Below, piece after piece: positions 1,096-58,953 of a stretch of 64,000 nucleotides of DNA; the first letter of the stretch is position 1, and each line of letters opens with the position of its first letter. Where the stretch lies: the NCBI RefSeq assembly GCF_024809975.1, contig NZ_JANUDY010000010.1:1-64000 (forward strand), given 5' to 3'. The notes beneath the pieces are model-generated. The model ran no database searches. It saw only the letters and a program-made list of their open reading frames with translations, and had not been told where the DNA came from. Source of the DNA: Comamonas sp. BIGb0152. GTDB lineage: Bacteria > Pseudomonadota > Gammaproteobacteria > Burkholderiales > Burkholderiaceae_C. The position numbers and the translations under genes are program-made.

Positions 1096-2145
1096 TTATT
1101 GGAAGCCTGCGCGGTCCAGCATTTGCTGGACCTTGGCCATGTTGCTGCCCACGGCGCTGATGGGGATGGTTTCGCTCTTGAAGGGCTTGTCCTGGGTCAT
1201 GGCCTTGAGCGCAGGGTTGTCGGTCTGCACATTCTTGGCGGCGGGCCACTCGTTGTTGCCGTTGGCGAAATAGGTCTGGGCTTCCGGGCTGGCCAGGTAC
1301 TCCAGGAACTTGACGGCGTTGTCCTTGTTCTTGCTGTACTTGGCGACTGCGCCACCGGCGATGTTCAGGTGCGTACCCCAGCTGCTTTGGTTGGGAAACA
1401 CCACGCTGACCTTGTTGGCGACTGCGACATCGTCGGGGTTGCTGGAGCGCATCAGGCGCGCGAAGTAGTAGCTGTTGGTGACGGCGATATCGCATTCACC
1501 GGCAGCGACGGCCTTGATCTGGTCGGTGTCACCGCCCTTGGGTGGGCGTGCCAGGTTGTCCTTGACGCCTTGCAGCCACTGCTGGGCCTTGGCTTCGCCA
1601 ATGTGCTCGGTCACCGCGCCAAACAAGCTCAGGTTGTAGGGGTGCGAAGCCGAGCGGATGCAGATCTTGCCCTTGTTCTTGGGGTCGGCCAGCTTCTCAT
1701 AGCTGTCCACGTCTTCGGCGTTCACTTTGGCCTTGTTGTAGGCAATGACGCGGGCGCGGGTCGACAGGCCGAACCAGGTGATGCCACCATCGGCTTCCGG
1801 TTGGGCACGCAGGTTGGCAGGGATCACCTCTTCGAGCTTGGCCGAGCGGATCGGCAGGAAGAGCTTGTCTTTTTCGCCGCGATAAAGGCGTGCGGCATCG
1901 ACCATCAGCACCACGTCGGCGGGGGAGGCGGCGCCTTCAGCTTTCAGGCGGGCCACAATGCCTGCGTCGTCAGAGTCCACGCGGTTGATCTTGATGCCAG
2001 TCGCTTTTGTAAAGTTGTTATAGAGCGCTTCATCGGTCGCGTAGTGGCGGGCAGAGTACAGGTTGACCACTTCCTGGGCGTGTGCAGTTGCGGCAGTGGC
2101 TGCCGTGATGGCGCAAGCCAGTGCAAGGATTTTGAAAGAATGCAT
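1096..2145 (-). CDS. Fe(3+) ABC transporter substrate-binding protein
   Basis: A 349-residue periplasmic binding protein of the FbpA/FutA/AfuA type. Residues 1-23 are a Sec signal peptide with an AHA/QE cleavage site. Family wording includes VVNLYSARHYATDEALY near the N terminus, DVVLMVDAARLYRG, the NSYYFARL stretch with the adjacent tyrosines that ligate ferric ion, and an SSWGTHLNIAGGAVAKYSKN-like segment. Such proteins deliver ferric ion to an inner-membrane FbpBC permease. No permease or ATPase gene is adjacent, so partners must be encoded elsewhere or it is an orphan receptor. A perfect palindrome lies about 45 bp upstream and may be its operator. Confidence 0.9.
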   Translation of the reverse strand: MHSFKILALACAITAATAATAHAQEVVNLYSARHYATDEALYNNFTKATGIKINRVDSDDAGIVARLKAEGAASPADVVLMVDAARLYRGEKDKLFLPIRSAKLEEVIPANLRAQPEADGGITWFGLSTRARVIAYNKAKVNAEDVDSYEKLADPKNKGKICIRSASHPYNLSLFGAVTEHIGEAKAQQWLQGVKDNLARPPKGGDTDQIKAVAAGECDIAVTNSYYFARLMRSSNPDDVAVANKVSVVFPNQSSWGTHLNIAGGAVAKYSKNKDNAVKFLEYLASPEAQTYFANGNNEWPAAKNVQTDNPALKAMTQDKPFKSETIPISAVGSNMAKVQQMLDRAGFQ

Positions 2146-2187
2146 AGGGCAAGACGTCTCTGTAAAGTTGGATGTGCGATCTTAATT

Positions 2188-2204
2188 GAAACAAGAATTG
2201 TTTC
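2188..2204. promoter_or_regulatory. Candidate operator upstream of the Fe-binding protein gene
   Basis: GAAACAA-GAA-TTGTTTC is a perfect 7-bp inverted repeat with a 3-bp spacer inside an AT-rich block 43-59 bp upstream of the start. Position and AT content suit a Fur or Fur-like repressor site, but the match to the classical Fur box is only partial, so the regulator is not established. Confidence 0.4.
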
Positions 2205-2291
2205 TATTTAAACCATTGCAGCGCCTGTGCTTATTCAGAGGGTCTTAAGTGCCGGCCTGTTAAGAGCCACTTGCAGGTATCGGCGGTAGAC

Positions 2292-2319
2292 AAAAAAAAG
2301 CCCGGCAAGGCCGGGCTTT
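2292..2319 (-). terminator. Terminator of the phasin gene
   Basis: A perfect 10-bp stem (AAAGCCCGGC/GCCGGGCTTT, 3-nt loop). Read on the minus strand it is followed by a long U run. It lies about 180 bp past the phasin stop; the intervening 3' region holds no gene, only a weak GGCCCAA/TTGGGCC inverted repeat at 2435-2468. Confidence 0.85.
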
Positions 2320-2496
2320 AAAAGGATCCAAGAAACCAGGTTTCGAAAAGATCCAAGGAGACAACTGGGTGCACTGAATGCATCAATGCAATAGGTGTAT
2401 TCTAGGGTTTACCCTTGTCTTTGTCCAGAGGCTGGGCCCAAATTTGACCAAACTGTAGGTCTTGGGCCACACACCGCCTCCGTTCACAGGCCTGAA

Positions 2497-3054
2497 TTAA
2501 CGGCGTTTGGCGGTAGCAGCGCTGACGTTGCCTGCAGCCTTGACGGCGTTGTTGGTGATGGTGTTGAAGTTGGTTTCTGCCACTTCACCCGCTTGCTTGA
2601 CAGCCTTTTGCACGGAGTCATAAGCGTTGTTGGCGGCAGCCACAGCGGTCTTCATCACAGCGACGGCGCTTTCGGAGCCGGCAGGTGCATTCTTGGCCGC
2701 GGTGTCGACAAATTCGTTGAACTTGGATTGGGCTTCAACGGCCTTGTTCTCGAAAGCCTTGCTGAATTCCAGGCTGGTGGCAGCAGCGATTTCGTACAGG
2801 TGGCGGCTGTAAGCGGCGGTCTTTTCAGCCATGGGCTGCAGCAAGCCGCTTTGCACGCTCATCAGGTCTTGGGCGTTCTTGGCATCCAGCACGGCCGAGG
2901 TGTTGGCCGATACGTCGGACAGGGCAGCGCGCGTAGCGGCCACGTTCAGCTCCACCAGCTTTTCCACGCCTTCGAAGGCCTTGTTGGTCAGGCCCAGCAG
3001 GGTTTCCAGATTTGCCTTGTGTGCAGCCAGGATTTGGTCAGGGGTCAATGCCAT
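2497..3054 (-). CDS. Phasin family protein (PHA granule-associated)
   Basis: A 185-residue, alanine-rich, almost wholly helical protein of the phasin_2 family, which coats polyhydroxyalkanoate granules. It begins [20 protein letters not shown], and the family pattern of a GVEKLVELN segment and a long Ala/Lys C terminus is present. The frame stays open further upstream to 3243, but ATG 3054 is chosen because GGAG lies 7 nt before it; the ATG at 3060 would be too close to that site. The upstream region carries a pair of TGC-type boxes like those bound by the PHA repressor PhaR. A terminator follows. PHA synthase genes are not in the window. Confidence 0.92.
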
Positions 3055-15506: not shown

Positions 15507-18002
15507 ATGCGCACCCAGACCTCCTCCTCTCCCCCACTTTTGCAACTGCCGATTGAGGGCATGACCTGCGCCTCCTGCGTCGGCCGTGTCGAGCGCGCAC
15601 TCCAGGCCGTGCCTGGGGTGCAAAGCGCCCATGTCAATCTGGCCACCGAGCAGGCCAGCCTGCAGTTGGGCGACCAGGCGCCAGCCGCGCAGGTGCTGGC
15701 CCAGGCCGTGGCCGCCGTCAACAAGGCTGGCTACAGCGTGCCTGCGCAGTCCTTGGTGTTGCAGATTGAGGGCATGACCTGCGCGTCTTGCGTCGGCCGG
15801 GTCGAGCGTGCGCTGCAGGCCGTGCCTGGTGTGCAGACGGCAGCGGTGAACCTGGCGACCGAGCGGGCCACACTGCAGCTGCAGGGCGGGGTGAGCGCCG
15901 AGCAACTGCTGGCCGCCGTGGCCAAGGCCGGCTATGCCGCCCGCCCGCTGCCCCAGGCGGCTGAGGCCGGCGCGGCTGCCGATGCCCATGACGCCCAGGC
16001 CCAGCGCCAGCAGCAGGCCCAGCAAAGCCTGCAGCGTGATTTGCTGCTGGCGGCCGTGCTGGCGGCCCCTGTGTTTGTGCTGGAGATGGGCGGCCATATG
16101 CTGCCGGGCTTTCACCACTGGGTGGCCCAGTGGCTGCCCCAGCAGAGCAATTGGCTGCTGCAGTGGCTGCTGACCAGCCTGGTGCTGGCGGGCCCTGGAC
16201 GCCGCTTTTTCCGCCTGGGGCTGCCGGCGCTGCTGCGGGCAGCGCCCGATATGAATTCGCTGGTGGCGGTGGGCACTTTGTCGGCCTATCTCTACTCGCT
16301 GGTGGCCACCTTCGCGCCCACGGCTTTGCCAGCCGGCACCGTGCATGTCTATTTCGAAGCGGCCGCGGTGATCGTGGTGCTGATCTTGCTGGGCCGCTGG
16401 ATGGAGGCGCGTGCCAAGGGCAATACCTCGGCAGCGATCAAGCGCCTGGTGCAGCTGCAGGCCAAGACGGCCTGGGTGATGCGCGATGGCGATTGGAAGT
16501 CGCTGGCCATTGCGCTGGTACAGCCGGGGGATGCCGTGCAGGTGCGCCCGGGCGAGCGCATTCCAGTCGATGGGCGGGTGACCGATGGCCAGAGTTATGT
16601 CGATGAATCAATGATCAGCGGCGAGCCCGTGCCAGTGCACAAAACCACGGGCGCACAGGTGGTCGGCGGCACCATCAACCAAAAGGGCGCCTTGACCTTG
16701 GAGGCCACCGAGGTGGGCGGCAACACGGTGCTGGCGCAGATCATTCGCATGGTCGAGCAAGCCCAGGGCGGCAAGCTGCCGATCCAGGCCGTAGTCGACA
16801 AGGTGACCATGTGGTTTGTGCCGGCGGTCATGGCCGCTGCGCTGCTGACCTTTGTGCTCTGGCTGCTGCTGGGCCCAACGCCAGCGCTGAGCCTGGCGCT
16901 GGTCAATGCGGTCGCTGTGCTGATCATTGCCTGCCCTTGTGCGATGGGCCTGGCCACGCCGACCTCGATCATGGTGGCCACCGGCCGTGCGGCCCAGCTG
17001 GGCGTACTGTTCCGCAAAGGTGAGGCCCTGCAGTTGCTCAAGGACGCCCAGGTCGTCGCCGTGGACAAGACCGGCACCTTGACCGAAGGCCGGCCCGCGC
17101 TGACCGACCTGGTGCTGGCACCGGGCTTTGAGCGCGCAGCCGTGCTGGCGGCGGTGGCTGCGGTCGAGAGCCAGTCCGAACACCCGATTGCGCAGGCCAT
17201 TGTGCAGGCCGCCCAGGCCGAAGGCCTGCAGATACCGCCGCTGGCCGGCTTTGAATCGCTCACCGGCTTTGGCGTGCGCGCCGATGTCGCGGGCGTGCGG
17301 GTAGACGTGGGCGCGGACCGCCTGATGGCGCAGCTGGGTGCCGATGTGGCGGTGTTCGGGGAGGACGCTGCCCGCCTGGGCGCCGAAGGCAAGACGCCGC
17401 TGTATGCCGCTCTCAACGGCCAGCTGGCTGCGATGATTGCCGTGGCCGACCCGATCAAGCCCACGACGCGGGCGGCCATTGATGGCCTGCATGCCATGGG
17501 GCTCAAGGTGGCGATGATCACGGGCGACAACCGCCGCACCGGCGAGGCGATTGCCCAACAACTGGGCATTGACGAGGTGGTGGCCGAGGTGCTGCCCGAT
17601 GGCAAGGTGGCCGCTGTCAAGCGGCTGCGGGCCACGCATGGCGCGCTGGCCTATGTGGGCGATGGCATCAACGATGCGCCTGCCTTGGCCGAGGCCGATG
17701 TGGGCATTGCCGTGGGCTCGGGCACCGATATCGCCATCGAGTCGGCCGATGTGGTGCTGATGGGCGGCGACCTGCGCGGTGTCGTCACCGCCATCGGCCT
17801 GTCGCGCGCTGCCATGCGCAATATCCACCAAAACCTGTTCTGGGCCTTTGCCTACAACGTGGCGCTGATACCGGTGGCGGCGGGCCTGCTGTACCCCGTC
17901 AACGGCACCTTGCTGTCGCCGGTGTTTGCGGCGGGGGCCATGGCGCTGTCGAGTGTGTTTGTGCTGGCCAATGCGCTGCGGCTCAAGCGTTTTAAAGTTT
18001 GA
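15507..18002 (+). CDS. copA: Copper-translocating P-type ATPase with two HMA domains
   Basis: An 831-residue P1B-ATPase that exports Cu(I) from the cytosol. Two N-terminal heavy-metal-binding domains each carry [20 protein letters not shown], followed by eight membrane helices. The ion-binding CPC is in [14 protein letters not shown], the phosphorylated Asp in [10 protein letters not shown], the SEHP nucleotide-binding motif in [11 protein letters not shown], and the hinge motif is [19 protein letters not shown] 15507 is chosen because the predicted promoter puts transcription start near 15485. ATG 15462 then lies inside the promoter, and ATG 15486 would be leaderless but remains possible. 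Confidence 0.95.
15551..15650 (+). repeat. HMA-domain coding repeat, copy 1
   Basis: This 100-bp segment of copA, starting GATTGAGGGCATGACCTGCG, recurs 213 bp (71 codons) downstream with about ten mismatches. It encodes the first metal-binding domain and reflects a tandem domain duplication. Confidence 0.8.
15764..15863 (+). repeat. HMA-domain coding repeat, copy 2
   Basis: Second copy of the copA metal-binding-domain repeat, offset 71 codons from the first. The CxxC motif and the following amphipathic helix are identical at protein level; the remaining differences are mainly after VPGVQ. Confidence 0.8.
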
Positions 18003-18050
18003 GGTGATGAAAGGAATGGCGCTTCCCTTTGTTCTGATGTAATACCAGAC

Positions 18051-19031
18051 ATGACTGACAACGTTCATCCTATTGCCATCTACTCTGGGCCGCAGGGCAT
18101 GGTGGATGTGCGGGTACAAGGCGATACCGTCTGGCTCAGCCAAGAGCAGATGACTCAGCTTTTTGGTCGAGAGCGCTCTGTGATCACGAAACACATCCGC
18201 AATGTGTTCAAGGAGGGGGAGTTGGCGGAGGAAAGCAATGTGCAAAATTTGCACATTGCTCATTCCGACAAGCCAGTGCGCTTTTACAACTTGGATGTCA
18301 TCATCTCTGTCGGGTACCGTGTCAAGTCGCAAGAAGGCGTGCATTTTCGCAGGTGGGCGACGGGCGTGCTTCATGAGCATCTCACGCGCGGCTATACCCT
18401 TCATCGCCACAGATTGGAAGCAAACGCCATAGAGCTGCACGCGGCACTAGAGCTGGTGCGCAAGGCAGCACAGATGCCTGAACTGACGGCTGAAACCGGC
18501 CGCGGCCTCTTAGATATCGTGACGCGCTACACCCATACCTTCTTATGGCTACAGCGCTACGATGAAGGATTGCTAGCCGAGCCGCTTGCTCAGCAGGGCG
18601 GTCGGCTGCCCACCGTTGATGAGGCTTGGGCGGCGCTTGGCAGCCTCAAAGCGAATTTAGTGCTACGAGGAGAGGCCACCGAGCTATTTGCGAAAGAGCG
18701 GGACGACGGATTAGCTGCTCTGTTGGGCAATCTGGACCAAAGCATCTTTGGCGAACCCGCCTATCCCAGTGTGGAAGCCAAAGCGGCACATTTGCTGTAT
18801 TTCGTGATCAAGAATCATCCATTTGCGGATGGAAACAAGCGAAGCGGTGCATTTTTATTTGTCGAATTTCTGCATCGCAACGGACGCTTGCTAGGCCCTG
18901 ATGGTCAGCCTGTGATCAATGATGTGGGTTTAGCAGCCCTGGCACTTTTGGTGGCTGAATCCGACCCTACGCAAAAGGACGTCCTGATTCGTCTGATCAT
19001 GCATATGTTGGCAAAAGGGAATGTCGCTTGA
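18051..19031 (+). CDS. RhuM-like N terminus fused to Fic/Doc domain
   Basis: A 326-residue two-domain protein. Residues 1-120 match the virulence protein RhuM family (VWLSQEQMTQLFGRERSVIT, then YNLDVIISVGYRVKSQEG), a KilA-N/Bro-like module of unknown function. Residues 200-325 form a Fic-fold domain with HPFADGNKR at 256-264. The Lys in place of the second Gly of HxFxxGNGR matches the Doc subgroup, whose founder phosphorylates EF-Tu; most Fic proteins AMPylate. No antitoxin-like gene is beside it. GC is visibly lower than in the neighbours, suggesting horizontal transfer. ATG 18051 has no clear ribosome site. Family assignment is firm; activity is inferred. Confidence 0.85.
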   Translation: MTDNVHPIAIYSGPQGMVDVRVQGDTVWLSQEQMTQLFGRERSVITKHIRNVFKEGELAEESNVQNLHIAHSDKPVRFYNLDVIISVGYRVKSQEGVHFRRWATGVLHEHLTRGYTLHRHRLEANAIELHAALELVRKAAQMPELTAETGRGLLDIVTRYTHTFLWLQRYDEGLLAEPLAQQGGRLPTVDEAWAALGSLKANLVLRGEATELFAKERDDGLAALLGNLDQSIFGEPAYPSVEAKAAHLLYFVIKNHPFADGNKRSGAFLFVEFLHRNGRLLGPDGQPVINDVGLAALALLVAESDPTQKDVLIRLIMHMLAKGNVA

Positions 19032-19069
19032 TGGATTGAGCATTGCGTCTCCGCTCAATGAACGGAAGC

Positions 19070-19105
19070 AAAAAGCCCCGCAGGCTCCAAGCCTGCAGGG
19101 CTTTT
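19070..19105 (-). terminator. Bidirectional terminator between the RhuM-Doc gene and fabI
   Basis: The arms AAAAGCCC...CAGGCT and AGCCTG...GGGCTTTT pair through about 14 bp with a short loop. T tracts on both strands fit the convergent genes that meet here. Confidence 0.85.
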
Positions 19106-19121
19106 GTTCAAGCGCAAAGGC

Positions 19122-55108: not shown

Positions 55109-56725
55109 ATGCAACACGACAAGATCCTCATCCTTGACTTCGGCTCCCAAGTCACCCAACTGATCGCCCGCCGCGTGCGCGAAGCCCATGTCTACTGCGA
55201 AGTGCATCCCTGCGATGTGAGCAGCGACTGGGTGCGCGAGTTTGCCGCTGACGGCAAGCTCAAGGGCGTGATCCTGTCTGGCAGCCATGCCAGCGTGTAC
55301 GAGGTGGATGACCGTGCCCCCGACGCCGTGTTTGAGCTGGGCATCCCCGTGCTGGGCATCTGCTACGGCATGCAGACCATGGCCACCCAGCTGGGCGGCA
55401 AGGTCGAAGGCTCCAACAGCCGTGAGTTTGGCTACGCCGAAGTGCGCGCCCATGGCCACACCGAACTGCTCAAGGGCATCGAAGACTTCGTCACCCCCGA
55501 AGGCCACGGCATGCTCAAGGTCTGGATGAGCCACGGCGACAAGGTCACCGCGCTGCCGCCAGGCTTCAAGGTCATGGCCTCGACGCCATCCTGCCCCATC
55601 GCCGGCATGGCTGATGAGGCACGCCGCTACTACGCCGTGCAGTTCCACCCCGAGGTGACGCACACGGTGCAAGGCCAGGCCTTGCTCAACCGCTTTGTGC
55701 TTGACATCTGCGGCACAAACGCTGATTGGATCATGGGCGACTACATCGAAGAAGCCGTTGCCAAGATCCGCGAGCAAGTCGGTGAAGAAGAGGTGATTCT
55801 GGGTCTGTCCGGCGGTGTGGATTCGTCTGTGGCTGCTGCGCTGATCCACCGCGCCATTGGCGACCAGCTGACCTGCGTGTTTGTGGACCACGGCCTGCTG
55901 CGCCTCAACGAAGGCGACATGGTCATGGAGATGTTCGAAGGCAAGCTGCACGCCAAGGTCATCCGCGTGGATGCCGCCGACCTGTTCCTCGGCAAACTCG
56001 CTGGCGTGAACGAGCCAGAAGCCAAGCGCAAGATCATCGGTGGCCTGTTTGTGGATGTGTTCAAGGCCGAGGCCTCCAAGCTCAAGGCTGCAAACGCCGG
56101 CTCCAAGGGAGCCACCTTCCTGGCCCAAGGCACGATTTACCCCGACGTGATCGAGTCCGGCGGTGCTAAGTCTAAGAAGGCCGTGGTCATCAAGAGCCAC
56201 CACAACGTGGGCGGTCTGCCAGAGCAACTGGGCTTGAAGCTGCTCGAACCCCTGCGCGACCTGTTCAAGGACGAAGTGCGCGAGCTGGGCGTGGCCCTGG
56301 GCCTGCCGCGTGGCATGGTCTACCGCCACCCCTTCCCCGGTCCAGGCCTGGGTGTGCGCATCCTGGGTGAAGTGAAAAAGGAATACGCCGACCTGCTGCG
56401 CCGCGCCGACGCCATCTTCATCGAAGAGCTGAACAACTGGGTGGACGACGCCACTGGTAAGAGCTGGTACGACCTGACCAGCCAGGCTTTCACCGTCTTC
56501 CTGCCCGTCAAGAGCGTGGGCGTCATGGGCGATGGCCGCACCTACGACTACGTCGTGGCGCTGCGCGCGGTGCAGACCAGCGACTTTATGACGGCCGACT
56601 GGGCTGAGCTGCCTTATGGTTTGCTCAAGCGGGTGTCGAACCGGATCATCAATGAAGTGCGCGGGATCAATCGCGTTACTTATGATGTGTCTAGCAAGCC
56701 GCCTGCGACGATTGAGTGGGAATGA
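55109..56725 (+). CDS. guaA: GMP synthase (glutamine-hydrolysing)
   Basis: A 538-residue enzyme converting XMP to GMP. The glutaminase domain carries [15 protein letters not shown] (catalytic Cys) and QFHPEVTHT (His/Glu); the synthetase domain has the PP-loop [15 protein letters not shown], and the dimerisation domain ends [19 protein letters not shown] 55109 begins [20 protein letters not shown]. It lies after the toxin gene, so readthrough from the toxin-antitoxin promoter could contribute to its expression. Confidence 0.97.
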
Positions 56726-56772
56726 GCTGGCTGTAGAAAATAGCCAGAACTAGCTGGAAGGCATTCCATTCT

Positions 56773-56799
56773 GAGCCCGCTGCAATAGCGGGCTTTTTT
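56773..56799 (+). terminator. Terminator of guaA
   Basis: GAGCCCGCT-GCAAT-AGCGGGCTTTTTT, 49 nt past the guaA stop, a typical intrinsic terminator. Confidence 0.9.
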
Positions 56800-56885
56800 G
56801 CGTCCGTCAGGCATATCCTTCCGCCGTCCAGCAACAGATCCAAGACAGGATTGGCGAGAACATCTGCTAGCCCATGGAGAGGCGA

Positions 56886-57887
56886 TCAACTTGGGCGCCG
56901 ACGCTTCCAGCCGAGGAGCGCAACCATAGCTGAAAGAACGAAGGTAGCCCAGGTTCCGAGTGATGGAACTGGCTTGGGTGCTGCCGGTGCCTGCGCGGCG
57001 GTGACTTCTATCGTGAATGACTTGGTATCGCTGAGCGCAGTGGGACTGCTGGAATCGCTGGCAGAGATCTCCACCGTGAAAGTGCCGCTCTCGGTGGGCT
57101 TGCCGGATATGACGCCTGTCACTGGGTCAAGAACCAGTCCAGCCGGAAGGTTGCTTGCGCTCCAAGTCAAAGGAGCGAGTCCACCAGTTGCCTCTACCGT
57201 AAATGGAGCATAGTCTTTGCCCTGCATTCCTGGTGGCAGACTTGCCGTAGCGATAGAAACCGGCGGAATTACCTGGGCTGCAGTGCCGGCAGTCAAATCA
57301 TCAAAGCCAAAGAAATCGTCTGCGTTACTATTGTTAAATACAACAGAGACAAATGGGTTTTCTGTATCTATGAGGCCATAATAAAATACTGAGCCATCTG
57401 CGGCAGGATTGCGGTGGGGGACGGAAACTGTGCTGGATGTGCCATCTGAATAGGTGATGCTCAATTGTCCACCGAAATCAGATATATCTGTCGCATAGAA
57501 TCCAAATGCCGTCTGCGGTAACGAGAAGCTGATAGTGAAGTTGGTATTGGTTTCTATGTAGTTCGAGCCAGACGTAGCAAATCTGCCCGCTCCTGAAGTG
57601 CTGTTGATCGATGCTGACCCAGAGAGGGTAGCGGTTCCGGATGCGCCCATGTTCACTGAAAACGGTGCAGTTGTACCTGTACCGATCGAGTCAAAATTCT
57701 CGGTATTTGCTCCATTCAGTCGTGCAACAAATGCATCACGTGCTGCATCGGACTGGGGGCGGGATGCGACGGAGGATCCATTAACAGCATCTTCTCCAAA
57801 AAATGTCTCTACTGCGGCATTGGTCAAACCTGATGAAATCAATCCAGCTGAGAGAATGCCGACCCTTAAAACATTAACAAAATGCAT
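56886..57887 (-). CDS. IPTL-CTERM sorting domain surface protein
   Basis: A 333-residue exported protein. Signal peptide residues 1-24 (ISSGLTNA/AVETFF) are followed by a beta-rich region that looks like a choice-of-anchor domain (SFSLPQTAFGFYATDISDFG, SVVFNNSNADDFFGFDDLTA). A putative Ig domain of the He_PIG type follows (SLPPGMQGKDYAPFTVEATG; GVISGKPTESGTFTVEISA). The C terminus has the sorting signal: VPSLGTW, a membrane helix and RRR. Such proteins are processed by an exosortase-like or archaeosortase-type system not present here. ATG 57887 follows AGAGGC. GC is lower than its neighbours. Confidence 0.88.
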   Translation of the reverse strand: MHFVNVLRVGILSAGLISSGLTNAAVETFFGEDAVNGSSVASRPQSDAARDAFVARLNGANTENFDSIGTGTTAPFSVNMGASGTATLSGSASINSTSGAGRFATSGSNYIETNTNFTISFSLPQTAFGFYATDISDFGGQLSITYSDGTSSTVSVPHRNPAADGSVFYYGLIDTENPFVSVVFNNSNADDFFGFDDLTAGTAAQVIPPVSIATASLPPGMQGKDYAPFTVEATGGLAPLTWSASNLPAGLVLDPVTGVISGKPTESGTFTVEISASDSSSPTALSDTKSFTIEVTAAQAPAAPKPVPSLGTWATFVLSAMVALLGWKRRRPS

Positions 57888-58074
57888 TGCATAGCCTCTT
57901 GTGCAAAAGCTGACATTTGATACAAGAGCCTTTTTGATCGCAATCCCCAAAACTAGTGATTTTATGGAGGGAGCTCGATGAGCAAAGCATTCAAGGGGAG
58001 ATGTCGAGACTTCGTAACGCCAATAAATTGCTGGGTTTTGTTTGGAATGGCAATGAGATCCGGCCGTGTGCGAG

Positions 58075-58953
58075 TTAGGAGGGGGCGTTGTCTTGCGCCA
58101 CCTTCGCCAACCACTCCCTCGGCGACACCCCCACCTTCCCCGTAAACGCCCGCGATAGCGCAGACGGATTCGCATACCCCAATTCCTCGGCCAGCACCTT
58201 GATCGAGCGCCTCTCGCGCAACCCGCTTTGCGCCAGTGCCACGCGCCAGCCCGTCAAATAGTCCGCCGGGGTTTGGCCCACCAGATCGCGGAAGGTGTTG
58301 GCGAAGGCTGTGCGGGACATGCCCGCCTGTTCGGCCATGCGCTCTAGGGTCCATGCGTCGCCCGGCGCATCGTGCATGGCCACCAGTGCGCGCGCCAAGC
58401 GCGCATCGGACATGCCATTGACGAGGCCCGGGTGTACACCTGCTTCATGGGGGTGATCCAGCAGCCAGCGCAGCAACTGGATCACCACCACCTCGAACAG
58501 CCTGTTGACCAGCAGCCGATGGCCACAGTGCAGGTGATCGGTTTCGGACAGCAGCAGCTGCAAGGCCATATCCATGCCCGGCACCTGCGCTAGCGGCAAG
58601 GCCACTAACGGCGGCAGTGAGCGGGCCAAGGGGTTGCTGGCACCCCCTTCGAAAACCAGGCGCGCGCAACTGAGGTCTGCCCCTTCAACGGGTGGGTTGT
58701 GGAAGCGGTGGGTGAACGGCGTAGGGTAGAGCAGCACGGTGGGCTGATCAAAGCGCAGCGTTTGCGGTACATCGCGGGCGCCCGGGTGGCTCACTTCCAG
58801 CGCACCACGGCGCAGCACATGCAGGTAGCCAAAGCCTTCGCCCGCATCAAAGTGGGTCAGGCCGCACAGGGCGCCGGAGTGGTGAAGTTGCGCCTTCACA
58901 CGAAAGCGCTCCAGGATGCCGGAGAGGCGGTCTAGGGGTGCAGGGGATTGCAT
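58075..58953 (-). CDS. AraC family transcriptional regulator
   Basis: A 292-residue regulator. The N-terminal AraC_binding_2-like cupin half (residues 1-180: LHHSGALCGLTHFDAGEGFG, GYLHVLRRGALEVSHPG) is followed by two helix-turn-helix motifs (TLERMAEQAGMSRTAFANTF; IKVLAEELGYANPSALSRAF) at the C terminus. It is divergent from the AhpD-like gene with a palindrome between them, so it likely controls that gene. Confidence 0.92.
   Translation of the reverse strand: MQSPAPLDRLSGILERFRVKAQLHHSGALCGLTHFDAGEGFGYLHVLRRGALEVSHPGARDVPQTLRFDQPTVLLYPTPFTHRFHNPPVEGADLSCARLVFEGGASNPLARSLPPLVALPLAQVPGMDMALQLLLSETDHLHCGHRLLVNRLFEVVVIQLLRWLLDHPHEAGVHPGLVNGMSDARLARALVAMHDAPGDAWTLERMAEQAGMSRTAFANTFRDLVGQTPADYLTGWRVALAQSGLRERRSIKVLAEELGYANPSALSRAFTGKVGVSPREWLAKVAQDNAPS

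Follow-up and report, generated by a model that had tools for sequence, protein, structure and literature searches.

A covarying palindrome in the wing codons of a Comamonas RhuM-Fic fusion gene, a predicted self-encoded operator

A stretch of 64,000 nucleotides from Comamonas sp. BIGb0152 (contig NZ_JANUDY010000010.1, positions 1 to 64,000; hereafter the window) carries on its forward strand, at 18051..19031, a gene that begins with ATG and encodes a single protein of 326 residues, identified from a list of open reading frames (ORFs) and from profile matches, in which a RhuM-type N-terminal part is joined to a Doc-like Fic domain. The gene is here called rhuM-fic. About 185-209 bp into it, in the codons for residues 62-70 and including the first strand of the predicted wing, lies a 25-bp palindrome, GCAATGTGCAAA-A-TTTGCACATTGC (18235..18259, assigned to neither strand), in which 12 of 12 arm pairs are complementary and which we regard as a predicted operator. 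It was spotted through the comparison of empty insertion sites, and is not among the observations of an earlier reading of this DNA, made from the sequence (the original prediction), which had proposed a stand-alone and possibly self-regulated RhuM-Doc effector.

The fusion itself, as well as its Fic motif, were described correctly in that reading. Both parts exceed their Pfam cut-offs, RhuM (PF13310) on residues 71-127 with 67.9 bits against 33.7 (over profile positions 16-72 of 252 only) and Fic (PF02661) on residues 219-274 with 43.8 bits against 24. The PADLOC profile PDC-S23, in which we take PDC to denote a candidate anti-phage defence system, matches the full length (residues 6-322, E 6.2e-125), and the cut-off of the NCBIfam model DOC_P1 (TIGR01550) was not reached (29.3 bits against 38.65). 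Structure prediction, which had been suggested as a check, gave a winged helix for the N-terminal part and a Doc fold for the C-terminal part. In AlphaFold2 models of the whole protein (predicted local distance difference test, pLDDT, 80.5; predicted template modelling score, pTM, 0.55) and of the N-terminal domain alone (86.5 and 0.77), the predicted helix-turn-helix comprises residues 31-38 and 42-54 (18141..18212, forward strand), with the recognition helix starting at R42 (18174), and the predicted wing comprises strands 64-67 and 76-80 (18240..18290, forward strand). Neighbours of this domain in the PDB score a middling Z of at most 7.2 and include winged helices of partition proteins, and its matches among the viral structures of BFVD include many BRO, Bro-N, KilA-N and antirepressor proteins (best E 1.3e-5). 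The modelled Doc-like Fic domain (residues 184-326; 18600..19028, forward strand) superimposes on Doc chain 3dd7_C with Z 10.7 (root-mean-square deviation 2.8, 119 residues aligned); Foldseek comparison of the model with Doc chains yielded E values of 0.047 or higher, and a Foldseek search of the PDB with the whole model returned no match at E <= 0.001. The motif HPFADGNKR (residues 256-264; 18816..18842, forward strand) has the Doc-type Lys, lacks the second Arg and fits HxFx(D/E)(A/G)N(K/G)R. Homologous loci were taken as the best 80 of at least 559 relatives found by genome scan, and in an alignment of 71 proteins (that of the window and those of 70 of the 80 loci, two with broken frames and eight redundant ones being left out) the H, P, D, G, N, K and R of this motif are invariant, the F almost so and the A variable. 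Given the Doc-like fold and conserved motif, the Fic part is the presumed effector. A fused inhibitory helix of class II, (S/T)xxxE(G/N), had also been suggested, and here the outcome was negative: a scan of the RhuM-Fic protein for [ST]xxx[ED][GN] gave zero matches. The segment QRYDEG (residues 168-173; 18552..18569, forward strand) is a near variant of this motif, not a match; its Q168, Y170, D171, E172 and G173 are invariant in the 71 homologues, and it is a possible internal regulator of the Fic part.

The palindrome is a nearly constant property of such genes. Inverted repeats were scanned with 10-bp arms and a 5-bp spacer corresponding to the AT-rich centre, and those with at least 8 of 10 pairs were counted. 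An inverted repeat was present at the homologous place in all 80 fusion loci, with 10 pairs in 67, 9 in seven and 8 in two; the other four reach 10/10 once the offset is shifted, and score low at the expected one since the start of their match was cut. Stop codons interrupt the matched frame of the fusion genes at L012 and L062, where the palindromes are intact. The arms vary among loci (for example AATGTGCA, GTTGTTGCA, AACTGTTTCC and GTTGTCCGG) and fall in differing frames, and are still self-complementary; at L024, L041, L056 and L068 the palindromes likewise form part of the coding sequence, though in another frame, and are not upstream of the genes. Among homologues whose wing peptide is the same and whose proteins are 61-77% identical, the wing codons are almost frozen, and in a second version of the palindrome the change of GTG to ATG is matched by a silent change of CAC to CAT in the other arm. 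The palindrome is present too in RhuM-only paralogues of the genus (about 37% identity), and in 31 of 31 domains from the best 30 loci retrieved with the Pfam profile rather than with the window protein. A first set of RhuM domains, in which Bacteroidota, Bacillota, Actinomycetota and phage records are all represented, was drawn from 195 of 202 loci, the others (L112-L117 and L120) having been fetched for copA, the upstream neighbour of rhuM-fic, or for its junction with the downstream neighbour, fabI; the domain of L212 was dropped as too short, and each group of identical rows was reduced to one. The threshold of 8 of 10 pairs was reached by 191 of 194 domains of this set and by 62 of 63 further ones, which amounts to 253 of 257 non-identical RhuM domains, 178 of them with all ten pairs. 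Pairing as a function of distance from the centre (191 genes) has sharp limits, being 0.53-0.60 at distances 1-2, 0.895-1.0 at 3-12, 0.51 at 13 and 0.16 at 14.

Several controls indicate that this complementarity is specific to the site. Over 71 distinct sites (from an alignment of 73 of 74 sites, the second copy at L002 being excluded) pairing was 96.1%, as against 54.6% in shuffled alignments and 21.5-40.1% in slid controls, and the covariation score was 1.069 as against 0.260, a value attained by 0 of 500 shuffles; all ten pairs change on both sides, a count on which the shuffles are nearly equal (9.8). Among fusion genes, a control window placed before the Fic motif gave none at 10/10 and three at 9/10 out of 77, as compared with 58 and six out of 64 for the site window, the two windows being scored via different anchor motifs. 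These data bear directly on the notion that the palindrome merely results from protein constraint on the wing peptide, which does gain something from the conservation of that peptide within subfamilies and from the 6.3 of 10 pairs that a synonymous-codon null yields alone. Under that null, drawn from each gene's own codon usage, 6.33 pairs were expected and 9.51 observed, with p<0.05 in 69 of 74 non-redundant genes, and for rhuM-fic of the window 5.05 were expected and 10 observed, an excess that contradicts the notion. Since palindromes of the same kind also occur in other frames, at other positions and with other peptides, and are correlated with a separate recognition helix, we give an origin in protein constraint next to no credence.

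The half-site varies together with the recognition helix. When 6-residue windows were slid along 74 non-redundant domains, controlling for similarity in the remainder of the domain, their similarity tracked that of the half-sites most closely at the recognition helix (partial r 0.58); a second peak (0.525) coincided with the wing encoded by the palindrome itself, as is trivially expected, with shoulders beside both peaks and values of -0.16 to 0.15 elsewhere. The partial Mantel correlation between helix and half-site was 0.605, the maximum of 2000 permutations being 0.098. Between genes of different wing classes, helices identical at 7-9 of 9 positions have half-sites with 6.4 of 7 bases in common (45 pairs), as against 1.92 for those identical at 0-2 positions (1217 pairs). 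The correspondence can be read as a residue-to-base code: at helix position 4, Arg goes with G (17/17), Val with T (19/19) and Lys with T (16/17); at position 6, Val with C (19/19) and Asn with A (19/19); and at position 9, Glu with G (16/16). In the window protein the code positions are R42, S43, V44 and K47. Prediction from the helix was then tried on a second set, of which 56 of 63 new domains could be scored (the rest lacked a helix match, 8 pairs or an eligible relative), with training genes as donors and with relatives at least 65% identical outside helix and wing excluded. The half-site taken from the gene with the most similar helix was right at 5.91 of 7 bases, and exact in 28 of 56, compared with 3.63 (six exact) for the nearest eligible relative and 2.62 for a random gene; hence the helix predicts the site better than kinship does. 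At the level of sequence statistics, then, the palindrome, its near-universality in the genes examined, its character as DNA rather than RNA and its co-variation with the helix are shown, and the target of the RhuM recognition helix is most likely the palindrome within the gene that encodes it. If bases are contacted 4-7 positions to either side of the centre, the two sets of contacts would lie about one turn of DNA apart, as for a dimer. The original prediction had cast RhuM as a sensor or DNA-binding part, and the modelled winged helix together with this helix-site specificity favours the latter role, just as the notion of self-regulation now has a concrete predicted DNA site attached to it. 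We propose the self-encoded operator as a class, characterized by a covarying palindrome in the codons of the gene's own domain and by a half-site predictable from the helix, both of which were found here, the second for RhuM only.

An inverted repeat within a coding region could alternatively act as an mRNA hairpin, in translational control or as an RNA antitoxin, rather than as a DNA operator. Its 10-bp stem and A/U-rich centre of 5 nt would allow such a hairpin to fold, and covariation is expected of an RNA stem also. Mismatches in the arms, on the other hand, were 16 G/T and 16 A/C in the first set; over all rows G/T was slightly in excess (28 to 19), which would suit RNA, though not significantly so (p 0.24). 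The lack of a clear preference for wobble pairs favours a duplex DNA target, and the 5-bp centre of the palindrome, which is 92% A/T, speaks for the same. Moreover, the arms follow helix residues of the type that makes classic protein-base contacts (Arg to G, Asn to A). For these reasons an RNA hairpin appears highly improbable.

Similar intragenic palindromes occur in ORF6N, Bro-N and KilA-N genes, whose domains may resemble RhuM in predicted fold and belong to other Pfam families, sampled here in small numbers. Motifs located 19 ORF6N genes in 26 loci and 15 Bro-N genes in 30 loci, and every one of them had at least 8 of 10 pairs: 18 of the 19 ORF6N genes had 9 or 10, as did 12 of the 15 Bro-N genes, in which the repeat lay at one fixed offset in 12. 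Downstream control windows contained three repeats at 9/10 and none at 10/10 for ORF6N (37 windows) and none above 8 for Bro-N (30 windows). For KilA-N, a convincing palindrome was found in four of ten loci (L383, L384, L385 and L388); L391 and L392 had 10/10 palindromes that were not placed in the KilA-N reading, and the genes of the other four loci were not located. The dinD gene of E. coli K-12 (L393:4761-5585), a Bro-N gene by Pfam, has a weaker palindrome at codon 64, with 9/10 pairs, a value reached by 9 of 1000 codon shuffles within the stretch scanned. The helix-to-site code was computed for RhuM only.

Conserved neighbours of the fusion were examined by tblastn with Hsd representatives, one per family confirmed by Pfam, in flanks of up to 10 kb. 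HsdM or HsdR of type I restriction-modification (R-M) systems was found in the flank of 40 of the 80 fusion loci, 36 of these 40 having an Hsd match within 500 bp; one further locus had HsdS alone, and 39 had none, only 26 of the latter having at least 8 kb on both sides. In all 40 the nearest match of each Hsd kind lies on the strand of the fusion, and hsdR is located downstream of it in 28 (with a start no more than 150 bp downstream in 19), upstream in nine and was not seen in three. The defence setting supposed by the original prediction is thus supported by these flanks and by the match to PDC-S23, and its statement that the gene stands without a small partner holds both in the window, where copA and fabI flank it, and more widely: among listed clusters of at least three loci, a small-protein cluster adjoined the fusion in at most two of 72 clustered loci, so that the missing antitoxin gene seems, as far as a crude ORF caller can tell, to be general. 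The fusion has an M90 peptidase gene (mtfA) no more than 300 bp away in 14 of the 80 loci, an arrangement shared by many copies in Psychrobacter. At L035, L042, L046 and other loci of that genus this neighbour is combined with the absence of Hsd genes from the flank, and such loci, present in many Psychrobacter genomes, suggest long-term keeping in the chromosome. In Lachnospira eligens (L251:1525-2325) RhuM and Fic are annotated as two adjoining genes and not as one fusion.

This setting also affects the view that RhuM-Fic serves virulence, being secreted or directed at a host, with regulation incidental, as has been proposed for BifA of Streptococcus zooepidemicus. According to the excerpted text of its description (PMC6529018), BifA has an N-terminal RhuM and a C-terminal Fic domain, the latter being required for its effects on host cells and its catalytic His being needed, and it was studied as a virulence factor; it therefore has the same order of domains as RhuM-Fic, and differs in that DNA binding is not mentioned in that excerpt. 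Type I R-M genes in the flanks of half of the 80 loci, carriers that are apparently mostly environmental (judging from record titles) and the PDC-S23 match all tell against this view, and we hold it to be very unlikely.

We consider it probable that the RhuM-Fic protein keeps its expression down by binding to an operator within the gene that encodes it, with the Fic part as effector; physical binding, repression, toxicity, target and trigger are what we infer from the patterns described. The RhuM winged-helix domain would bind, as a dimer, the palindromic operator in its own wing codons, and the bound protein would most likely block transcription through its own gene and, in R-M loci, also through the genes after it. 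Autorepression by such a road-block would be the simplest function, and with hsdR downstream it could also restrain restriction. Such a block would hold the Fic enzyme low without an antitoxin gene, and the operator would move along with the gene to any place of insertion. If the block were lost, for example after phage infection, the Fic part would modify a cellular target and growth would stop. A bolder extension would have RhuM, ORF6N, Bro-N and KilA-N form a superfamily of self-targeting genes, each with the target of its recognition helix spelled out in its wing codons under one residue-to-base code, and would, in RhuM-Fic, make the copy of the gene itself the antitoxin, the gene-bound protein being inactive and the destruction or loss of this DNA, for instance by a phage, freeing the Fic toxin; to this we assign an outside chance.

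In related genomes the junction between copA and the terminator stretch without the gene spans about 26 bp (G021, G023 and G040) or about 156-189 bp (G015, G018 and G019), and in G017 a gene with 88% identity occupies the same place between copA and fabI, so that rhuM-fic is a one-gene insert of about 1.07 kb; the extra DNA relative to the empty junctions of G021, G023 and G040 extends approximately over 18003..19068 (neither strand). G015 and G019 have no gene and contain at the copA-fabI junction (L112:4489-4513 and its equivalent in L113) a 25-bp near copy of the palindrome with 3-4 mismatches, perhaps a relic. A full-length fusion is found in four of 53 genomes of the genus, and RhuM-Fic is present in one copy in its own genome; by our count of the listed matches, 44 of 369 genomes of the class have one over nearly the whole protein, the sole such match being interrupted by a stop codon in four of these 44. 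The site might alternatively be a loading site, a replication or partition-type site or a mobility site of elements that carry RhuM-like genes, rather than an operator of expression, as exemplified by phage lambda, whose replication origin lies inside gene O. Relatives of RhuM in phage and satellite-phage records, proteins like Bro-N and KilA-N among the viral structural matches, partition-protein winged helices among the PDB neighbours and the near copies kept in G015 and G019 at the same junction would all accord with such a role. The palindrome is, however, single, with no second copy near it: in 81 fusion-locus domains only three weak places were found, the nearest 2.8 kb from the gene's own site. 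It also occurs in chromosomal Psychrobacter loci and in R-M loci, and the insert holds a single gene. A site for mobility or replication is therefore unlikely, in our estimation. Viral contigs searched for relatives of RhuM-Fic yielded none that could be confirmed.

As to other copies of the site, the exact form TGTGCAN5TGCACA occurs once in the 5.0-Mb genome of the strain, inside rhuM-fic, and a host regulon sharing the site was considered and rejected, the exact 17-mer being confined in that genome to this gene. Several observations weigh against an autoregulatory operator. Genomes of the genus hold 0-4 copies each of the same form, which is present in 45 of the 53; the centres of these copies are for the most part GC-rich, and most of the copies come from genomes that lack the fusion. 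When up to three mismatches are allowed, ATGTGCAN5TGCACAT has 492 places in the genome of the strain, an excess over the 31 for the reversed control. The promoter scan gave no promoter-like match and there is no promoter-proximal copy of the site, so that repression would have to act as a road-block; a position of hsdR downstream of the fusion is not universal among R-M loci. Similarity of helices goes with a modestly higher likeness in other parts of the domain (0.57 vs 0.45), and the second set is not fully independent, coming from the same bacterial class and including some helices equal to training helices. The code is mixed for Pro at position 4 (C in four, G in five), Thr at position 6 (G in 17, C in eight) and Lys at position 9 (C in 21, A in three). 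Finally, four of the 257 RhuM domains fall short of 8 pairs, namely L247 (Wolbachia phage WO) with 6/10, and L296 and the second copies at L074 and L002 with 7/10, the last of these copies containing stop codons. One copy of the arm pattern with 1-3 mismatches lies at C2:359858-359876 in the genome of the strain (G000).

The excerpted text of Anantharaman et al. 2013 (PMC3710099) already describes RhuM-DOC fusions and their neighbourhoods with R-M and PrrC, and proposes multi-level defence; there RhuM is suggested to be a toxin domain, whereas here it is the candidate DNA-binding, self-targeting part. The molecular function of RhuM was called unknown in an excerpt from a 2020 paper (PMC7449626). 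PDC-S23 and the annotation "virulence protein RhuM/Fic/DOC family protein" designate the same whole-length fusion family, as names and models without a DNA site; in open-access text of PubMed Central (PMC) no paper naming PDC-S23 was found. The phd-doc operon is described as self-regulating in the excerpted text of PMC4257102, and RhuM-Fic resembles Phd-Doc in its Doc fold (Z 10.7) and Doc-type motif, differing in that the operator of Phd-Doc lies in its promoter region and its antitoxin is a separate protein, whereas RhuM-Fic would have an intragenic site and has no antitoxin gene. Within PMC open-access text, a literature surveyed in part, no report of a self-encoded site was found. Lambda O is likewise a DNA-binding protein with sites in its own gene, though these are replication iterons limited to one phage group, as opposed to one palindrome in wing codons, about 250 genes and a residue-base code for RhuM. 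The fusion, its R-M setting and a proposed role in defence are accordingly known, and the gene is itself a member of known families; what appears new is a self-encoded operator that follows a code, which on a stricter view could be called a variant of intragenic autoregulation. If the proposal is true, the DNA targets of RhuM regulators, many of them in defence loci or mobile elements, could be read from their own genes, some 250 natural helix-site pairs would already yield a code for DNA recognition with no need of binding experiments, and a toxin-like enzyme would be controllable without an antitoxin gene and able to move as one gene. Short DNA probes would allow a direct test, for which dinD of the laboratory strain E. 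coli K-12 may be a suitable case.

The ORF upstream of rhuM-fic, here called copA, is a heavy-metal E1-E2 ATPase according to Pfam and ends at 18002, and the downstream ORF, here called fabI, encodes an enoyl-acyl carrier protein reductase and is convergent to rhuM-fic. A terminator-like hairpin at about 19072-19106, between rhuM-fic and fabI, was read by eye and is missing from the output of the scan. The original prediction placed the gene in DNA of lower G+C content (GC), which is accurate for the adjoining 1-kb windows (0.541 for the gene, 0.585-0.679 for these) and for the whole window (0.621); values nearly as low or lower are found elsewhere in it, 0.545 at 2001-3000 and 0.494 at 57001-58000, the latter within a second low-GC stretch at 56501-58500.
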